From contig NZ_CP157804.1 in assembly GCF_040112705.1 (NCBI RefSeq), positions 2,908,001 through 2,972,000 of the forward strand: a stretch of DNA of 64,000 bases, given 5' to 3'. Source of the stretch: Flagellimonas sp. MMG031. GTDB taxonomy: Bacteria > Bacteroidota > Bacteroidia > Flavobacteriales > Flavobacteriaceae. A program made the translations under genes and the position numbers. The notes beneath the pieces were generated by a model. The model was given only the letters and a program-made list of their open reading frames with translations. It made no database searches and had not been told where the DNA came from. This document shows, in pieces, positions 51,662 to 58,940 of this stretch; position 1 is the stretch's first letter, and every line of letters begins with the position of its first letter.

Positions 51662-52396
51662 TTATTCAGGTGCTCCCAAATAGGGAAATGTAGTCGATAT
51701 ACTAGCTGTTAAGCCAACACCGTCCGATGTCAGTCTTGGCAAATCCGCCATACCGTCATCATCCAAATCCTGTCCACTAAAGCGGTCGCCTTGCATTCCT
51801 CCAAAGAATAAGATCAAGGAAACGTCAATAATGTCGTCGTTGGGGTGTCTACCGGTAAGGGCTACCTCGTCTCCATCCGGCACCAACACGTTGCCATCAT
51901 TGTCAAGGTCTGTTCCGGGATTAAAATAAGTCGTGGGCAAATCTGGAGCAACCTCCAAAACATCTGCCGATAAAACGGTGGTCAACGTTGCCGCGTCCAA
52001 TCCCAAAATATTGTTTTCGTAGTTCACATCGGCGGGGTCCAATCCTAATTTTAGGGCATACACATCGTGGTATTGCTCCAATCTCGCCTGAAACCCAGCC
52101 TGGAAGGCTGCAGTCATCTCAGAAGGGACCGTAGTGTTGTGGGCATCCTTTACGCTTGGTTCGCCTTCCATATCAAAACTTAAGGTGGTATTGATTCCTG
52201 GACGGCCAATGTGGTCTACCTGCGCAAATGTTCCGGTAAAATCAACGCCCATCATATCATCATCGTCCATCATCATATCATCATCCATCATCATGTCGTC
52301 GTCCATGTAGGTTCCATTGTCATCGTTATTACAGCTGATAACTAGGCCAAAGCTCAGCAAAAGTGCCGTTACATATAAAGATTGTCTTAGTTTCAT
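51662..52396 (-). CDS. DUF4331-related lipoprotein with Met-Asp repeat
   Basis: 244-aa lipoprotein (lipobox VISCNND). Directly after the lipidated Cys is a low-complexity stretch of alternating DDD and MMM clusters (about residues 31-50), then a domain matching the C-terminal part of DUF4331 proteins: QVDHIGRPGINT, DDIIDVSLILFFGG and the terminal TSDGVGLTASISTTFPYLG. The acidic-Met cluster is a plausible site for copper or other cations, but that is only inferred from composition. It lies 19 bp after the second DUF4331 gene and is co-transcribed with it. Function unknown. Confidence 0.8.
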   Translation of the reverse strand: MKLRQSLYVTALLLSFGLVISCNNDDNGTYMDDDMMMDDDMMMDDDDMMGVDFTGTFAQVDHIGRPGINTTLSFDMEGEPSVKDAHNTTVPSEMTAAFQAGFQARLEQYHDVYALKLGLDPADVNYENNILGLDAATLTTVLSADVLEVAPDLPTTYFNPGTDLDNDGNVLVPDGDEVALTGRHPNDDIIDVSLILFFGGMQGDRFSGQDLDDDGMADLPRLTSDGVGLTASISTTFPYLGAPE

Positions 52397-53274: not shown

Positions 53275-54465
53275 ATGAACCCTTCTGCCTCAGGATGGAT
53301 CAACAAGTTTGGTCACCTCGTAGATCAAGAGTCTTCCTACTTTGACGACTTTGAAAGCCTGTATCGGGAACTCAAGGCAAATGGTTTTATCTATGGTGTA
53401 CACTTAAGCATTCCGTCCTTTATTCCCGTGGAGCATACCCTAAGTGAGGATGAGATTGCCAAGATCAACTTGTTGACCGCTTTGTATTTCACCTACACTT
53501 TCGAGGTAGGAAAAACGGATTTTGAAGCCTTTGTAAACAAGGTTTTTGAATATTACCAATCCCTGAACGTTAGTCGGATTTCCTTTTTGAACAAAATTTT
53601 GACCGGTTCCAAGACCGAATCACAATTGGAAAAACTGATTGACTCTCGGATCTATTTGAGCGACAATACTTTTAGCAGGGCCCTGGGAAATAGTTTGACC
53701 AATTCGTTGCTCTATGTCGATATCTTAATCTTTATTGTCTACTTAAAAGGCGAAAAGAATATGATGGAACATGCCCAACTTTTGGAGTACGTCACCATCA
53801 ATATTGTGTACCACGCACTCAATTCCAAACAGACCCACGAATCGGATGCGCGATTGATCCAGGTATTGGGTTCGTCATTAACTTATGTGGACTTGGACAA
53901 AGCAAAATTTGAGGGGGAATATGCTGATCTATTGAACCAAAATTTCAGCAAAAACGAGAAGGATTATTTTTTGGATATGGCCTGTTTGACCATATGGGAA
54001 GATAAGGCTTTGGACTACACCGAAACGGATTACATTTTTGGTTTGGGAAGGGACCTTGGCAAATCGAAAAAAGAGGTCGATTTCGAGCTTCGATTTGTGG
54101 AAAATTTCTTTGAACAGAACAAGGAAAAAGTTGCTTATTTGAGCAACAAAAATTTGGCCGTTCAATTCTATGATGGCATGTCCAAAAATGTGAGCAAACT
54201 GATTTTGAGAAACAGCAAAAGACTCAAAAAAGAATTGGCCCAAAGTCGTGAACTTGTGTCCCTTTTATCCAAATCCACCGTAAAGGATTTGAATGCCGAA
54301 GAAAAGAAAAAAGTACAGAACCAGTTGTTGGATATTTTTAAGAGCATACCCTCATTGGCCATTTTTATGTTGCCCGGAGGAGCCATTCTTTTGCCCATTT
54401 TTATTAAATTGATTCCGAAACTGCTCCCTTCCGCATTTGATGACAACCGAGTGGAGGACAACTAG
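53275..54465 (+). CDS. LETM1-related biofilm-associated protein
   Basis: 396-aa protein of a Bacteroidota-specific family related distantly to LETM1. The N-terminus (GWINKFGHLVDQESSYFDDF) and helical body (LLTALYFTYTFEVGKTDFEAFV, TDYIFGLGRDLGKSKKEVDFE) are typical. The C-terminal LETM1-like segment is RELVSLLSKSTVKDLNAEEK followed by the hydrophobic SIPSLAIFMLPGGAILLPIFIK and LIPKLLPSAF. There is no signal peptide. One hydrophobic stretch near the C-terminus suggests membrane attachment. Mitochondrial LETM1 concerns K+/H+ or Ca2+ exchange; whether that transfers is unknown. Single gene ending at a bidirectional terminator. Confidence 0.8.
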   Translation: MNPSASGWINKFGHLVDQESSYFDDFESLYRELKANGFIYGVHLSIPSFIPVEHTLSEDEIAKINLLTALYFTYTFEVGKTDFEAFVNKVFEYYQSLNVSRISFLNKILTGSKTESQLEKLIDSRIYLSDNTFSRALGNSLTNSLLYVDILIFIVYLKGEKNMMEHAQLLEYVTINIVYHALNSKQTHESDARLIQVLGSSLTYVDLDKAKFEGEYADLLNQNFSKNEKDYFLDMACLTIWEDKALDYTETDYIFGLGRDLGKSKKEVDFELRFVENFFEQNKEKVAYLSNKNLAVQFYDGMSKNVSKLILRNSKRLKKELAQSRELVSLLSKSTVKDLNAEEKKKVQNQLLDIFKSIPSLAIFMLPGGAILLPIFIKLIPKLLPSAFDDNRVEDN

Positions 54466-54556: not shown

Positions 54557-55312
54557 TTATTCCAACCATAACTTAAAATCCTTTACCCGTTCCCTACTAA
54601 CGATGATTTCGTGTTCATCAAACCGTTTCATCTTAATTTGAAGCCTTGAATTGGTGTATGAAATGATGTCGCCTATGTGATTGATGTTCACATAAAACTT
54701 ACGGCTCACCCTGAAAAATGTTTGGGGCTCCAACTCCTCCTCCAACTGTTCCAATGTAGTGTCGAGCAAATAATTTCTTCCGTCCGAAGTGGCGGCGTAG
54801 GTACCCTTGTTTTCACTATAAAAACATTCCACATCATCGGCATTTATAATTTTTAAATGCTGTCCCACCCGAGCTGTAAATCGTTTTTTGTATTCCCGTT
54901 CCAAGGGGTTTACCAAAAGGTTTTTGATGTCGTTAAAATCGATGGGGATCTTTTGGTTTTCGGGCTTAAAATTCCGATACTTTTTTACGGCACTTTCCAG
55001 CTCTTCCTCATCAATCGGTTTTAGCAAATAATCGATACTGTTCAGCTTGAATGCTTGCAGTGCATATTCGTCATAAGCCGTGGTAAAAATGATAGCACTT
55101 TTCACCTCTATTTCATCAAAAATTTCAAAGGAAAGTCCATCCGATAATTGAATGTCCAAAAAGATGAGATCAGGATGTGGGTTGTCTTGGAACCAAGCAA
55201 TGGAATCTTCAACCGAATGCAGCATGGTGGACACCTCAATTTCGAGCTCCGAAAGCAATCTGGACAATCGTCGTGCCGCTGGTTTTTCGTCTTCAATGAT
55301 CAGGACATTCAT
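54557..55312 (-). CDS. LytTR-family response regulator
   Basis: 251-aa response regulator. Receiver domain at residues 1-115: acidic pair in IIEDEKPAARR, phospho-acceptor Asp in PDLIFLDIQLSDG, Thr in IIFTTAYDEYAL and Lys in YLLKPID. A linker leads to the LytTR DNA-binding domain (about 150-250: LKIINADDVECFYSENKGTYA, FRVSRKFYVNINHIGDI, MKRFDEHEIIVSRERVKDFK). Cognate kinase: the LytS-like protein encoded upstream. It is the last gene of the run that contains four 2TM genes, 77 bp after the last of them. A LytTR-type binding site at 58911-58940 suggests autoregulation of the operon. Confidence 0.93.
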   Translation of the reverse strand: MNVLIIEDEKPAARRLSRLLSELEIEVSTMLHSVEDSIAWFQDNPHPDLIFLDIQLSDGLSFEIFDEIEVKSAIIFTTAYDEYALQAFKLNSIDYLLKPIDEEELESAVKKYRNFKPENQKIPIDFNDIKNLLVNPLEREYKKRFTARVGQHLKIINADDVECFYSENKGTYAATSDGRNYLLDTTLEQLEEELEPQTFFRVSRKFYVNINHIGDIISYTNSRLQIKMKRFDEHEIIVSRERVKDFKLWLE

Positions 55313-55389
55313 GGTGGTTATTGTATTTGTTTTTATGGCTAATCAGGTTCATCTAAAATAGGAAAGGTCAGCTTCCCATGGTTAAATTC

Positions 55390-55722
55390 TTATTTGTACT
55401 TATCAACATGGTCCCTATCCTCATCGATATATTTTTGTATCTGACGCTCTTCCCACTTTTTGAAAAATGAGAATTTGTGACGAAGTACAATAATGGTGTG
55501 TACAAGCAAGATCACTCCCCAAATCAAAATATTTGCATTGATCCAATCATAAAAGTAGGCTTCCTTTGGGAAGGCTTCCGGTAAAAATGAGTTGAGCACT
55601 CCCCATTTAAGCAATACCAATATACCATTAACGACCACAAAAATGGCGATATGGCGATAGTAACCCTTCAGTTCCTTGACACGTTTCTCCGCAGCTTCCC
55701 GAGCAAAATTTCTATCTGTCAT
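55390..55722 (-). CDS. 2TM-domain protein (divergent copy)
   Basis: 110 aa. A cytosolic N-terminus (MTDRNFAREAAEKRVKELKGYY), two membrane helices (RHIAIFVVVNGILVLLKWGV and NANILIWGVILLVHTIIVL, separated by a longer loop than in its neighbours) and the conserved KKWEERQIQKYID tail define the 2TM family. The NP-x-x-G-K element before the tail is replaced by FSFFKK, making this the most diverged of the five 2TM modules. It starts 10 bp inside the previous gene. The 2TM family recurs next to LytS/LytTR systems in Flavobacteria; no biochemical role is established. Confidence 0.85.
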   Translation of the reverse strand: MTDRNFAREAAEKRVKELKGYYRHIAIFVVVNGILVLLKWGVLNSFLPEAFPKEAYFYDWINANILIWGVILLVHTIIVLRHKFSFFKKWEERQIQKYIDEDRDHVDKYK

Positions 55723-56044
55723 GGCCTTGCTTGAATTTCTTCATTTCTTCCTTGTCCTCTTCCATATACTTTTTGATCTGTCGTTCTTCCCAGTTTTTTC
55801 CCAAAAGGGGATTGAATTCAAAGGTTTTGGAAGCATGGAAGAACAATCCAATGCCCCACGCAAACAAGGTGATAAAATGTTCCCATCTCCAAAAATCATC
55901 CGTTCTAAGAAAGATGTTGATCAAGATAAATGTATTTATCACGATATAAATGGCCAAGTGGATATAAAACCCCTTGAGTTCGTCGACCCTTTTTTTGGCC
56001 CTATTGTATTTTTCGGTGTTAAAGTTTTCCATGATTATTTCCAT
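55712..56044 (-). CDS. 2TM-domain protein
   Basis: 110 aa (ATG at 56044; an alternative ATG at 56032 avoids overlapping the previous gene). N-terminal RAKKRVDELKGFYIHLAIYIVIN leads into helix 1; helix 2 is EHFITLFAWGIGLFFHASKTF; the tail is NPLLGKNWEERQIKKYMEED, matching the family motif. Both ends face the cytosol. It is the third stand-alone 2TM gene of the operon and overlaps both neighbours by about 10 bp, which implies tight translational coupling and fixed ratios. Confidence 0.87.
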   Translation of the reverse strand: MEIIMENFNTEKYNRAKKRVDELKGFYIHLAIYIVINTFILINIFLRTDDFWRWEHFITLFAWGIGLFFHASKTFEFNPLLGKNWEERQIKKYMEEDKEEMKKFKQGHDR

Positions 56045-56379
56045 TTATCGTTCTGTTCTTCATTGCGCATAATCTCCTCGATCTTGCGCTTCTCCCATTG
56101 TTTTCCAAAAAATGGGTTCAGGTCGAATGTTTTTATGGCGTGAAAAAGAACACCTATCCCCCAGCCAAAAGCGGCCCATAAAAACCACATATAGCCAAAT
56201 CCGTTGGTAAAATAATTGATAAGTGCCAAACCGGATATGACCAGAACATAGGAAGTCAAGTTCCCATAGAAACTTTTAAGCTCGTCCACGCGCTCCCGAG
56301 CCCTTATATATTTGTTCTCTTTATTCGTTGTATCCATGATGTTGCTATTAGGGGTGATGTTATAGTTAAAAGTACTCAT
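56035..56379 (-). CDS. 2TM-domain protein
   Basis: 114 aa from 56379, two bases after the stop of the previous gene; an internal ATG at 56337 (MDTTNKENKYIRARERV) would give a length nearer the other copies. Helix 1 is NLTSYVLVISGLALINYF, helix 2 YMWFLWAAFGWGIGVLFHAI, and the tail NPFFGKQWEKRKIEEIMRNEEQ. It differs from its neighbours by a charged C-terminal end (NEEQNDKWK). Confidence 0.85.
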   Translation of the reverse strand: MSTFNYNITPNSNIMDTTNKENKYIRARERVDELKSFYGNLTSYVLVISGLALINYFTNGFGYMWFLWAAFGWGIGVLFHAIKTFDLNPFFGKQWEKRKIEEIMRNEEQNDKWK

Positions 56380-56381
56380 TC

Positions 56382-56660
56382 TTAAAATTCTTTGTCGTTC
56401 ATAAACTCCTGAATCTTACGCTCTTCCCATTCCTTGCCAAAAAGGGGATTGAATCCGTAAGCGGACATGCCGTGACCTAACAGTCCAAGTCCCCACCCTA
56501 CGGCAGGAAAAATGATCCAAGGGAAAGTGGTAGTCCTGTAATTGAGATATCCCAACAACGGGATCACGATTAGGTAAGCGGTCAGATTGTAATAAAAGGA
56601 TTTGATACACTCCACCCTTTCTTTGGCTTTGGCATATCTAAGTTCTGTTGAATTTTCCAT
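56382..56660 (-). CDS. 2TM-domain protein (closest to the kinase-fused copy)
   Basis: 92 aa. MENSTELRYAKAKERVECIKSFYYNLTAYLIV and FPAVGWGLGLLGHGMSAYGFNPLFGKEWEERKIQEFM are strikingly like the C-terminal 2TM module of the sensor kinase encoded next upstream (KRYAKARERV, FPTIGWGFGLTAHGMAAFGYNP), more so than like the other stand-alone copies. A recent duplication between the two is the simplest explanation. The 199-bp leader before it holds a heptamer tandem repeat, so this gene may have its own promoter. Confidence 0.88.
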   Translation of the reverse strand: MENSTELRYAKAKERVECIKSFYYNLTAYLIVIPLLGYLNYRTTTFPWIIFPAVGWGLGLLGHGMSAYGFNPLFGKEWEERKIQEFMNDKEF

Positions 56661-56766
56661 GACTGTTCGTTTTTATTTGATTACATCCCAAAATTCGGCA
56701 TACCCAAGCGCAAAAAGAAAAACGAGTTTCTGAACTGTTATTTTATAGGGATGAGTTGTAGGTAAG

Positions 56767-56810
56767 AAGGTTAAGGGTTAAGGGTGAAGGGTGAAGGGTG
56801 AAAGGTTAGG
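56767..56810. repeat. Telomere-like heptanucleotide tandem repeat
   Basis: About six units of AAGGGTT/AAGGGTG/AAAGGTT, ending in AGGG, between the kinase gene and the first 2TM gene. Short tandem repeats upstream of a gene can change copy number by slippage and alter promoter spacing or leader structure. Here the tract lies 107-150 bp before the 2TM start codon. Confidence 0.8.
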
Positions 56811-56859
56811 GCCGGAGATTTTGTTTCAAACCATGGGGCCTCCAGACTAGTTTGGAATT

Positions 56860-58188
56860 CTAAAAATCGTCCTTATCCATTAATTCCTTGATCTTGCGCT
56901 CCTCCCAGCGCTTGCCCCAAAGGGGGTTGTAGCCAAAAGCGGCCATCCCATGGGCGGTTAACCCAAATCCCCATCCAATCGTGGGAAAAAAGGCCCAAAG
57001 AAACTCAGTGGTCCGTAAATTGAGCCACCACAGAAAAGGAATCACAATGCAATAGGCCATGAGGTTCCCATAAAAGTCTTTGATGGCCTGAACGCGCTCC
57101 CTGGCCTTTGCGTACCGTTTTTCCTCAATATAGTTCTCCTGCGTTTCCATCACCGTGTACTTTTGGGTGAGTATGGGCAGCGATACGCTAAAATCCTTGG
57201 TGGTTTTGTTGATGACCATTTCACGGTCCGTTAAAATACGGTAGCGCTGCTTGATGTTCTGCAATCCCACTCCACTGCTTTTCTTGACTACCTGCTTTTC
57301 CTGAAGATTATTACTGACCACCAACATACCCTTGTCCTCATACACCTTGATATGTAATGGTCTGGACGAGGTCACCACATTGTGCTTCACCGCATTTTCC
57401 AACAATAATTGCAAGGAGAGCGGCACAATTTTGGCCTCGGGTACGGAGCATTGGTCGGGAATGTCAAAAATGATACTGTCCTCAAATCGCATTTTCAGCA
57501 GGCGCACATAAGTACGGGCAAACTTGAGCTCTTCATCCACCGTAACCAAATCTTTGTTCTTCTGCTCCAGTACATAACGGTACACCTTGGAGAGTGAAGT
57601 AGTGAAATTCTGCGCCTGATGCGGGTCTTCGTCAATTAAACTGGTCAGTACGTTCAGGCTGTTGAACAAAAAATGGGGATCTAATTGATTTTTAAGGGCA
57701 TCAAATCGGGCCGATGCCGAACCGGCAATAATTTTCTGCTCCTTGACTTGTCGTTCCTTGTAATATTTGTAATAATAGGCTGCATAGAACATAAGTGCCA
57801 CGGCCATAGAAATAATAAAGGAACTCACATAGAACTCAGATTGTTCCTCTGCCAAGAACTGTGCAAAAGATCGTTGATTGATCAGTACGATGAGCACAAA
57901 CCTCGATAGCACAATACCCACAATAGAGGCCACTATGTTACCCAAAATACCGTAGGCGATATACTTTTTGGTAAACAGCTCCTTATCGTACTTGCGCATC
58001 AAAAGAATAAAAGAAGCCGCATTCAGCATGTAAATGATCGTGGAAAAGATCATGCTTTCCCAAAACTCTTCCCATAGCTCTTGGTAGGTGAGCTCCCAAC
58101 CCTTGATAAAGAAAATAATGAGGAACACTATAAAAATAGCGATCCCCACTAAAAATGCTTTTAAAAGTTCTCTGACAAAGAGTTTCAT
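56860..58188 (-). CDS. LytS-like sensor histidine kinase fused to a 2TM domain
   Basis: 442 aa. Four N-terminal membrane helices (about 8-28, 42-64, 73-100, 117-140) make the sensor. The kinase core follows: phospho-accepting His in LDPHFLFNSLNVL near residue 173, N-box QLLLENAVKHN near 263 and G-box GVGLQNIKQRY near 305, all of the His_kinase (LytS/YehU) class. After SLPIL near 337 and a six-residue linker, residues from Met347 onwards form a complete 2TM domain (KRYAKARERV, helix pair, NPLWGKRWEERKIKELM). That Met is encoded at 57150 in the sequence GTGATGG, where TGA and ATG overlap in adjacent frames. Probably an ancestral separate 2TM gene joined by frameshift. Cognate regulator: the LytTR protein encoded at 54557. 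Confidence 0.9.
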   Translation of the reverse strand: MKLFVRELLKAFLVGIAIFIVFLIIFFIKGWELTYQELWEEFWESMIFSTIIYMLNAASFILLMRKYDKELFTKKYIAYGILGNIVASIVGIVLSRFVLIVLINQRSFAQFLAEEQSEFYVSSFIISMAVALMFYAAYYYKYYKERQVKEQKIIAGSASARFDALKNQLDPHFLFNSLNVLTSLIDEDPHQAQNFTTSLSKVYRYVLEQKNKDLVTVDEELKFARTYVRLLKMRFEDSIIFDIPDQCSVPEAKIVPLSLQLLLENAVKHNVVTSSRPLHIKVYEDKGMLVVSNNLQEKQVVKKSSGVGLQNIKQRYRILTDREMVINKTTKDFSVSLPILTQKYTVMETQENYIEEKRYAKARERVQAIKDFYGNLMAYCIVIPFLWWLNLRTTEFLWAFFPTIGWGFGLTAHGMAAFGYNPLWGKRWEERKIKELMDKDDF

Positions 58189-58194
58189 ACGTTT

Positions 58195-58818
58195 CTATTT
58201 ACCACAGTTAGCTAGGACTTCTTTGGCCCTTTCCTCTCCCCATGAAGGGTAAAACGGTGTTTCGGAATTAAAGGTAGCAAAAAGTTCCAAGGCCCTTTCC
58301 ACATCCTTGCAATAGGGAGTGGTATCCTTGCCAAAATAAAGGGCCGAACCCATGTCCCATTCCGCTTTTGAAAGAATGACCCTTGGGTTTTTTGGGGCGA
58401 TCTCCAAGGCTTTTTGGTACAACTGGGCATTTTTTGGGGAAAGGGTCATCCCATAGGTTGCACCATCAAAAGAGATCCAAGCAGTATTAATTAGTGCTTC
58501 CTGAATCAACAGTTCCGGATTGTTCGGCGATATGGCCTTGGCCACATCCAAAAATTCCTTGGCCTTTTCCAACTGGTTGCTCAGTTTGGCTTCGTCCGTT
58601 TCCCCAAAAGAAATCAAGGTGTTGATTTGCGACACATAATAATAGGGCAACCATTTATCGGGCTCCGCGGTTGCGATGCGCTCAAAAAGATGCGAGGCTT
58701 CCATCATTTTTTGGTCTTCCCATAAGGCAAAGGCCTTTTCCATTCCTTTGGAATATCGGTCTTGGGCATTTGCGAAGGATACGGCCAAAAATACTGCGGC
58801 CAAAAATAGTTTTTTCAT
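58195..58818 (-). CDS. Exported TPR-like protein heading the two-component operon
   Basis: 207 aa with signal peptide (MKKLFLAAVFLAVSFANA). The mature part is helical with TPR-like pairs: YSKGMEKAFALWEDQKMMEASHLFERI, LEKAKEFLDVAKAISPNNPELL and YQKALEIAPKNPRVI. Two Cys lie near the end. First gene of the operon, 6 bp before the kinase gene, so it may deliver a periplasmic signal to the sensor, though that is inferred from position only. The promoter and LytTR site lie directly upstream. Confidence 0.85.
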   Translation of the reverse strand: MKKLFLAAVFLAVSFANAQDRYSKGMEKAFALWEDQKMMEASHLFERIATAEPDKWLPYYYVSQINTLISFGETDEAKLSNQLEKAKEFLDVAKAISPNNPELLIQEALINTAWISFDGATYGMTLSPKNAQLYQKALEIAPKNPRVILSKAEWDMGSALYFGKDTTPYCKDVERALELFATFNSETPFYPSWGEERAKEVLANCGK

Positions 58819-58869: not shown

Positions 58870-58900
58870 CAAAGATGAATTCACCCAGGTGCCCACCAAA
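58870..58900 (-). promoter_or_regulatory. Promoter of the LytS/LytTR/2TM operon
   Basis: On the minus strand TTTG (58900-58897) is followed by exactly 19 bp and CATCTTTG (58877-58870), which differs from the TAnnTTTG consensus at one base. The TTTG/-33 and 19-bp spacing are canonical for Bacteroidota. The start codon lies 51 bp downstream. Confidence 0.65.
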
Positions 58901-58910
58901 AGAAGTTTTA

Positions 58911-58940
58911 CCGAACTGTAAAGATTCAAGGATGAACCGT
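58911..58940 (-). promoter_or_regulatory. LytTR-type binding site (9-12-9 direct repeat)
   Basis: On the minus strand ACGGTTCAT and ACAGTTCGG are separated by exactly 12 bp. Against the LytTR/AgrA-type consensus WMMGTTNRK the first fits 8 of 9 and the second 9 of 9 positions. The site ends 10 bp upstream of the -33 element of the operon that encodes the LytTR regulator, the expected position for autoactivation. Confidence 0.65.

Follow-up and report, generated by a model that had tools for sequence, protein, structure and literature searches.

Predicted LytTR-box promoters precede both the kinase genes and the 2TM array of a LytS/LytTR operon in Flagellimonas

The 64,000-nucleotide stretch analysed here, called the window (Flagellimonas sp. 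MMG031, Flavobacteriaceae, contig NZ_CP157804.1, positions 2,908,001 to 2,972,000; coordinates below count from its first letter), carries on its minus strand an operon for a LytS-type histidine kinase, four stand-alone 2TM proteins and a LytTR response regulator. An initial annotation, made from the sequence alone, had placed seven genes here in one direction, and all seven reading frames were recovered. The first gene (58195..58818) encodes an exported TPR-like protein of 207 residues; the gene is present as annotated, but its TPR assignment is weak, the best Pfam match (TPR_19) reaching 24.7 bits against a cut-off of 25. The kinase (56860..58188) comprises four N-terminal, probably transmembrane helices, a DHp/CA core (His_kinase PF06580, E 3.2e-25) and a C-terminal 2TM tail (56863..57108, residues 361-442; PF13239 match over residues 361-438, E 1e-27). 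In its phospho-acceptor region, LDPHFLFNSLNV is invariant across 38 aligned kinases, namely that of the window and those of 37 of 80 related loci. These 80 are the best of 563 loci confirmed in a kinase scan, and their kinases are 58-99% identical to that of the window, the closest named relative being Muricauda sp. ARW1Y1 (99%). The stand-alone 2TM proteins are class a, the closest to the kinase tail (56382..56660), class b (56035..56379), class c (55712..56044) and class d, the most divergent (55390..55722). They match PF13239 with E-values of 5.8e-20 to 1.6e-30, and all five 2TM domains of the operon score far over the curated cut-off. The last gene (54557..55312) encodes a 251-residue regulator with a receiver and a LytTR DNA-binding domain (Response_reg E 6.7e-15, LytTR E 6.7e-23). 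Pfam thus agreed with the annotated kinase with 2TM tail, four 2TM proteins and LytTR regulator. No curated NCBIfam family scored over its cut-off for any of the seven proteins among the matches listed, which for the regulator were the best 25 of 43.

The genes had also been described as overlapping, which holds for 2TM-b/c (10 nt) and 2TM-c/d (11 nt) only; gaps of 6, 199 and 77 nt lie between the TPR and kinase genes, the kinase and 2TM-a, and 2TM-d and the regulator, respectively. The 199-nt gap holds a separate box and promoter. What is new here, as judged by sequence, is that the TPR-kinase genes and the 2TM array each have, upstream, a LytTR-type direct repeat in a 21-bp register, followed by TTTG at +37. 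The box before the TPR-kinase genes, ACGGTTCATCC-N10-ACAGTTCGG (58911..58940, minus strand), has no mismatch and is the best site of the genome; a putative -7 element, TTTG, lies 37 nt after it (58870..58873, minus strand). The box before the array, ACAACTCATCC-N10-ACAGTTCAG (56730..56759, minus strand), has one mismatch, ranks second in the genome and is conserved in relatives, with TTTG again 37 nt after it (56689..56692, minus strand). Promoters of Bacteroidetes are built from a -33 and a -7 element. TTTG at +37, an A three bases before it and a T-rich stretch at offsets 9-12 fit a promoter of this kind, in which the box would lie some 9-10 bp 5' of the -33 element. On this comparison the geometry is the same as that of the LytTR direct repeats described in the accessible part of PMC6193735, which are 9 bp long, mostly have a 12-bp spacer and are strongly biased to a position 10 bp upstream of the -35 element. 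Between the kinase gene and the array promoter there is also a tandem repeat of the 7-bp unit GGTGAAG in 5.4 copies (56769..56806); several relatives (loci L036, L053, L055 and L072) carry 7-bp-like repeats, of similar or other sequence, in the same place.

The arrangement of the operon recurs among relatives. The LytTR regulator was found 3' of the kinase with 2 to 6 stand-alone 2TM genes between them in 74 of the 80 loci, the other six ending at contig ends; since gene order and content recur in so many related loci, they are not due to chance. Four stand-alone copies are commonest (33 of the 74 loci), followed by three (20), six (9), five (7) and two (5), and a TPR profile match, the counterpart of the first gene, lies just upstream of the kinase in 63 of the 80. 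The words ACAGTTC/ACAATTCATCC are common to the upstream sequences of 32 loci picked by hand from the 80, 25 of them with a TPR gene. With half-sites 21 bp apart, start to start, the strict pair was present in 26 of 64 TPR-upstream and 35 of 79 array-upstream regions, in 3 of 80 kinase-upstream regions and in none of 74 regulator-upstream regions. Other distances gave 0 to 2 pairs and shuffled sequences about 0.1 expected pairs, the loci being mutually related.

To follow the box beyond the operon, 60 Flavobacteriaceae genomes were scanned, a subset of 149 sampled genomes of the family of which 137 contain 2TM. At two mismatches or fewer, 117 sites were obtained in 49 of the 60 genomes vs 12 for the reversed pattern. 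Apart from one missed site in G045 (G and L numbers denote genomes and loci), the sites were classified by grouping the next same-strand gene with BLAST, and 92 of the 116 precede seven gene families: DUF2141 (20), a TonB receptor of about 717 residues (17), the TPR-kinase genes (17), 2TM or kinase genes (16), DUF2807 (14), a family of about 345 residues that we take to be serine-hydrolase-like (5) and DUF4440 (3), with Pfam names obtained on four examples. The target gene starts within about 120 nt of the site in most, not all, of the 92. The other 24 sites comprise two pairs and 20 singles, seven of the 24 being intragenic; the single site in G013 actually lies at an array start that the gene caller overlooked. 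TTTG stands exactly 37 nt after the box at 82 of the 116 sites (76 of the 92), other offsets averaging 0.47, and all 82 carry a T at offset 10, within T-rich offsets 9-12, as well as an A located three bases 5' of TTTG.

These sites follow the kinase. Orthologs of the kinase and of the LytTR regulator (at least 58% identity) occur together in the same 49 of the 60 genomes, and all 49 kinases extend into a 2TM tail; a contig end truncates one of these genes and another contains an internal stop. Any box site was found in 45 of the 49 kinase-bearing and 4 of the 11 kinase-less genomes (Fisher p = 2e-4), and a site with TTTG at +37, a filter picked after the sites had been seen, in 42 of 49 and 1 of 11 (p = 2.5e-6); neither test takes relatedness into account. 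In the genome of MMG031 itself, the two operon boxes are the only sites with one mismatch or none. The total of 14 matches, including 12 with three mismatches each beyond the operon, compares with 13 for the reversed control, and the three-mismatch sites, the one at a DUF2141 gene excepted, were set aside as being at the level of that control. The DUF2141 gene (G000:C1:2972975-2973476) lies just past the end of the window, about 6 kb from the operon; its box stands some 70 nt before the likely start and is the sole one of the 12 with TTTG at +37. It is likely a third target in this genome.

The targets point to the cell envelope. Of the 17 sites before DUF2807 or DUF4440 genes, 11 were viewed in larger stretches; without exception, a PspC-related gene ends 0 to about 85 nt before the box, and DUF2807 follows the box, twice after a DUF4440 gene. 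The reference PspC protein of MMG031 scores in Pfam for PspC, LiaI-LiaF-TM and Toast-rack. The part of PMC11237479 available to us unifies DUF2807, DUF4097 and DUF2154 as Toastrack and ties them to membrane-stress signalling. From sequence, PspC/Toastrack genes are part of the predicted circuit at the 11 viewed loci, and this is not borne out in MMG031 itself. We speak of an envelope response because of this context together with the TonB receptor and DUF2141 targets.

Comparison of the five 2TM domains shows how close the array stands to the kinase tail. A shared RVxELKxFY entry had been annotated; it holds as a loose motif, but not as quoted, since it reads RVQAIKDFY in the kinase, RVECIKSFY in a, RVDELKSFY in b, RVDELKGFY in c and RVKELKGYY in d. 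The shared exit proved firmer, W-E-[EK]-R-[KQ]-I being present in all five domains, with W-E invariant across 58 aligned stand-alone proteins. The tail is identical to class a at 57 of 91 positions, to b at 38 of 92, to c at 38 of 90 and to d at 23 of 89. In a maximum-likelihood tree of 89 2TM domains from 23 chosen loci, in which the domains are short and many forks are unresolved, all 19 kinase tails fall into a single clade (98/96) with nine stand-alone class a copies, eight of which open their array. Class b joins in a larger clade of 45 (100/99); it is the first copy in several loci and the class most alike across genera, with identity of up to 74%. Class c is separate at 90/86, class d is scattered, and four copies linked to folA are separate at 100/99. 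AlphaFold predicted three helices including a hairpin for class b (predicted local distance difference test, pLDDT, 75; predicted template modelling score, pTM, 0.45), and four N-terminal helices, a kinase core and a hairpin tail for the kinase (pLDDT 75, pTM 0.40), whose domain arrangement is unreliable; at pTM 0.40-0.45, both models were kept out of arguments about contacts. A PDB sequence search with 2TM gave no match at E <=1, Foldseek gave 15 weak matches with none at E <=0.001, and the kinase matched one histidine kinase sequence (6swj, 6swk) over the core only.

A survey of 2TM copy number and neighbourhood, as the initial annotation had suggested, separates array copies from a second kind. 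MMG031 has six 2TM domains, five in the operon and one beside folA. Over 15 Flavobacteriaceae genomes, the kinase cluster holds 55 of 67 domains, the other 12 lying elsewhere with at most one per genome. The 11 kinase-less genomes have no 2TM (four genomes) or a single one (seven), and all seven singles are beside or fused to folA. With the copies of G001 and MMG031 added, folA adjoins the lone copy in nine of nine cases examined. In four of these (L233, L234, L235 and L236), 2TM shares one frame with dihydrofolate reductase, as checked with Pfam for L233; in the others (L231, L237, L238, L242 and L116:7433-8529) the two are adjacent. The pairing is apparently a membrane-anchored dihydrofolate reductase, or a pair on the way to one.

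Outside the family, a tailed kinase, one or more stand-alone 2TM genes and the regulator stand together in four genomes from another family of the same order, fetched out of eight in that family with matches. In three of these loci a gene for an ICMT/PEMT-like membrane methyltransferase lies in or beside the array (L255:6215-6790, L256:5977-6534 and L259:6115-6684), a call made with Pfam for L259 and by likeness for L255 and L256. Beyond the order, 13 of 15 class- or phylum-level 2TM matches were fetched, those of G209 and G217 being left out. In one of the 13, L244, from another order, a 2TM gene lies directly 5' of a tail-less LytS kinase and a LytTR gene, and the box precedes this unfused operon with TTTG at +37. 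No such kinase was seen within the fetched stretch at the other 12 places; at L247 a receiver-domain protein lies about 1.2 kb from 2TM, and at L254 and L257 the 2TM profile did not recover 2TM in that stretch. The initial annotation had named a common location of 2TM genes far from kinase genes, with no interaction, as the finding that would speak against joint action; as to location, this is not the case within Flavobacteriaceae, judging by the 55 of 67 domains in the cluster, and it is the case outside the order, at 12 of 13 places. At class level, outside the family, 15 kinases similar to that of L244 (which is counted among them) were compared; 2TM in the 4-kb locus is confined to L244, and TPR homologues were found near 8 of the 15.

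The gene order, box, promoter spacing, target families and co-occurrence with the kinase described above come from comparing sequences. On these grounds we propose, with moderate confidence, that the operon encodes an autoregulated LytS/LytTR envelope-response system, whose outputs would include free copies of the kinase's own tail domain, likely acting back on the kinase. The kinase would be held in the membrane at either end, through the four N-terminal helices and the C-terminal 2TM hairpin, and would sense membrane disturbance and phosphorylate the LytTR regulator. The regulator would bind the 9-bp direct repeats, which have a 12-bp spacer and lie shortly before the -33 element, and would activate one fixed promoter type, that of the TPR-kinase genes and the 2TM array and, in many relatives, also of DUF2141, the TonB receptor and DUF2807 (Toastrack) beside a pspC-like gene. 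The induced stand-alone 2TM proteins would assemble with each other and with the kinase tail, and such assemblies could signal or reset membrane state, most likely with a damping effect on the kinase.

That the stand-alone proteins act with the kinase tail had been suggested before. The co-occurrence, the tree clade and the unfused operon of L244 speak for it, and mixed assemblies themselves are a conjecture from these. Because a fused copy, an unfused operon, a shared clade and a dedicated array promoter all exist, we judge contact between 2TM proteins and the kinase to be on balance probable, and the operon of L244, in another order, backs the idea that they bind it. The proposal that 2TM proteins tune the sensor takes a different shape here, since the array has its own predicted LytTR-box promoter and so looks like an output of the very system that it might tune. 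In a more specific and tentative version, the kinase carries a fused product of its own regulon, free 2TM proteins compete or co-assemble with the tail, and the kinase thereby counts 2TM assembly; classes a, b and c plus a variable d might form a hetero-oligomer in most Flavobacteriaceae genera. If true, this would be a new layout for feedback in signalling.

Several observations weigh against the proposed system. The strict pattern is absent from over half of the upstream regions, many of which nevertheless contain visibly related sequences. The DUF2807 site of MMG031 has three mismatches and no TTTG at +37, lies about 147 nt from the gene and is probably a chance match. G003, the single kinase-less genome that has a site with TTTG at +37, carries three box sites, of which two precede DUF2807 and DUF2141 (L157 and L158), but no kinase or regulator was found in it; 4 of the 49 kinase-bearing genomes (G001, G007, G027 and G059) are without a site at two mismatches or fewer. 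In the other family of the order, the repeat is present at the operon in just two of the four fetched loci. In L255 it precedes the kinase and in L259 the TonB receptor, in each case with TTTG at +37; L259 has it also before array genes, there with TTTG at +38. No repeat was found at the operon of L256 or L258, the latter having a single stand-alone 2TM copy. At L272:407-3471, from another order, the same box and promoter spacing stand before a cluster of TPR, kinase and LytTR genes; the 4 kb fetched contain no 2TM, which means that box and 2TM are separable. The older core may therefore, as far as these comparisons reach, have been the exported TPR protein, the kinase, the regulator and the box, with 2TM joining later. 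Finally, the kinase model (pTM 0.40) gives no view of tail docking.

The strongest rival, which we nevertheless consider somewhat unlikely, is that the 2TM proteins are plain membrane-stabilising effectors and that the kinase tail is a mere membrane anchor, with no interaction between tail and array. The array's own box promoter, of the kind that other targets have, would suit an effector, and the 12 of 13 places outside the order away from such kinases imply that the domain can function without one. Anchoring alone fits less well with a tail that is present in all 49 kinase orthologs and groups with class a copies, with the absence of array-type copies from the 11 kinase-less genomes and with the existence of an unfused 2TM-kinase operon.

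Rather improbable, in our view, is a second alternative, in which the 2TM proteins act not on the kinase but on the LytTR regulator, tethering it to the membrane as the inhibitors of LytTR Regulatory Systems do. The accessible text of PMC6193735 describes these systems as a LytTR regulator plus a membrane inhibitor, autoregulated through the same kind of repeat, and the 2TM genes lie directly 5' of the LytTR gene; however, the regulator here contains a receiver domain and is partnered by a kinase, and it is the kinase rather than the regulator to which a 2TM copy is fused. It is also improbable that the box is read by another or by several LytTR proteins, so that the genes behind it are not the regulon of the operon's regulator. 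G003 with its sites, the box of L272 before a LytS/LytTR cluster that lacks 2TM, and LytTR paralogs in several family genomes favour such other readers, but sites with TTTG at +37 track kinase and regulator over the 60 genomes (42 of 49 vs 1 of 11), and G004 and G047, whose LytTR matches at E <=1e-30 reach only 43-49% identity, have no site. That the array is a neutral tandem expansion retained by chance, its members having no separate roles, is very improbable: copy number does vary from 2 to 6 across the 74 loci, G002 (which has the kinase) and L258 have single stand-alone copies and class d is strongly divergent, but tree and alignment both show classes a, b and c again in different genera, and the array promoter is conserved.

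Set against described systems, the proposed one resembles LytS/LytTR two-component systems in kinase family, regulator architecture and a direct-repeat site beside the promoter: a PF06580 kinase, a regulator with receiver and LytTR domains and predicted 9-bp repeats about 12 bp apart upstream of target promoters are all present. The difference is that the kinase here ends in a second membrane domain common to four stand-alone proteins of the operon. With LytTR Regulatory Systems such as HdrRM and BrsRM, as far as the consulted portion of PMC6193735 describes them, it shares a LytTR regulator, small membrane proteins in the operon, predicted autoregulation and, a short distance 5' of the promoter, direct repeats with a mostly 12-bp spacer. 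Membership was nonetheless rejected on the definition given there, as a receiver domain and a kinase are present; the membrane proteins, moreover, are 2TM paralogs of the kinase tail. The LiaFSR/PSP modules, in what the available part of PMC11237479 covers, similarly tie a two-component or LytTR output to small membrane proteins and PspC/Toastrack genes, whereas the operon has no LiaF-type gene and its small membrane proteins are 2TM, one of them fused to the kinase. The Pfam family itself fits all five domains, although the PF13239 entry reads just "2TM domain", and no report of it as a regulon product and kinase tail turned up in the literature searched.

In that search, which covered open-licence literature, no description of the operon, the regulon or a role for 2TM was found among the papers listed, and none of PF13239 itself, in line with the initial annotation, which knew of no described 2TM role. 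In the part of PMC10197871 that was accessible, five of five coevolved lines of Flavobacterium johnsoniae changed in one or other gene of an apparently adjacent LytTR/histidine-kinase pair, the contribution of LytTR being called unknown. This pair was set aside as a candidate for the same system, as its locus tags there seem adjacent, with no space for 2TM genes. The proposed system would give 2TM, a domain widespread in Flavobacteriaceae, a testable role. For a major group of marine bacteria, it would further define a predicted regulon whose promoters are of one precise type and in which LytTR signalling is tied to PspC/Toastrack envelope genes.

Two neighbouring genes of the window were also observed. 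The one at 53275-54465, on the plus strand, encodes a protein with a LETM1_RBD domain (E 3e-8), and the product of that at 51662-52396 is predicted to be exported and has an unusual stretch of M and D residues close to the N terminus.

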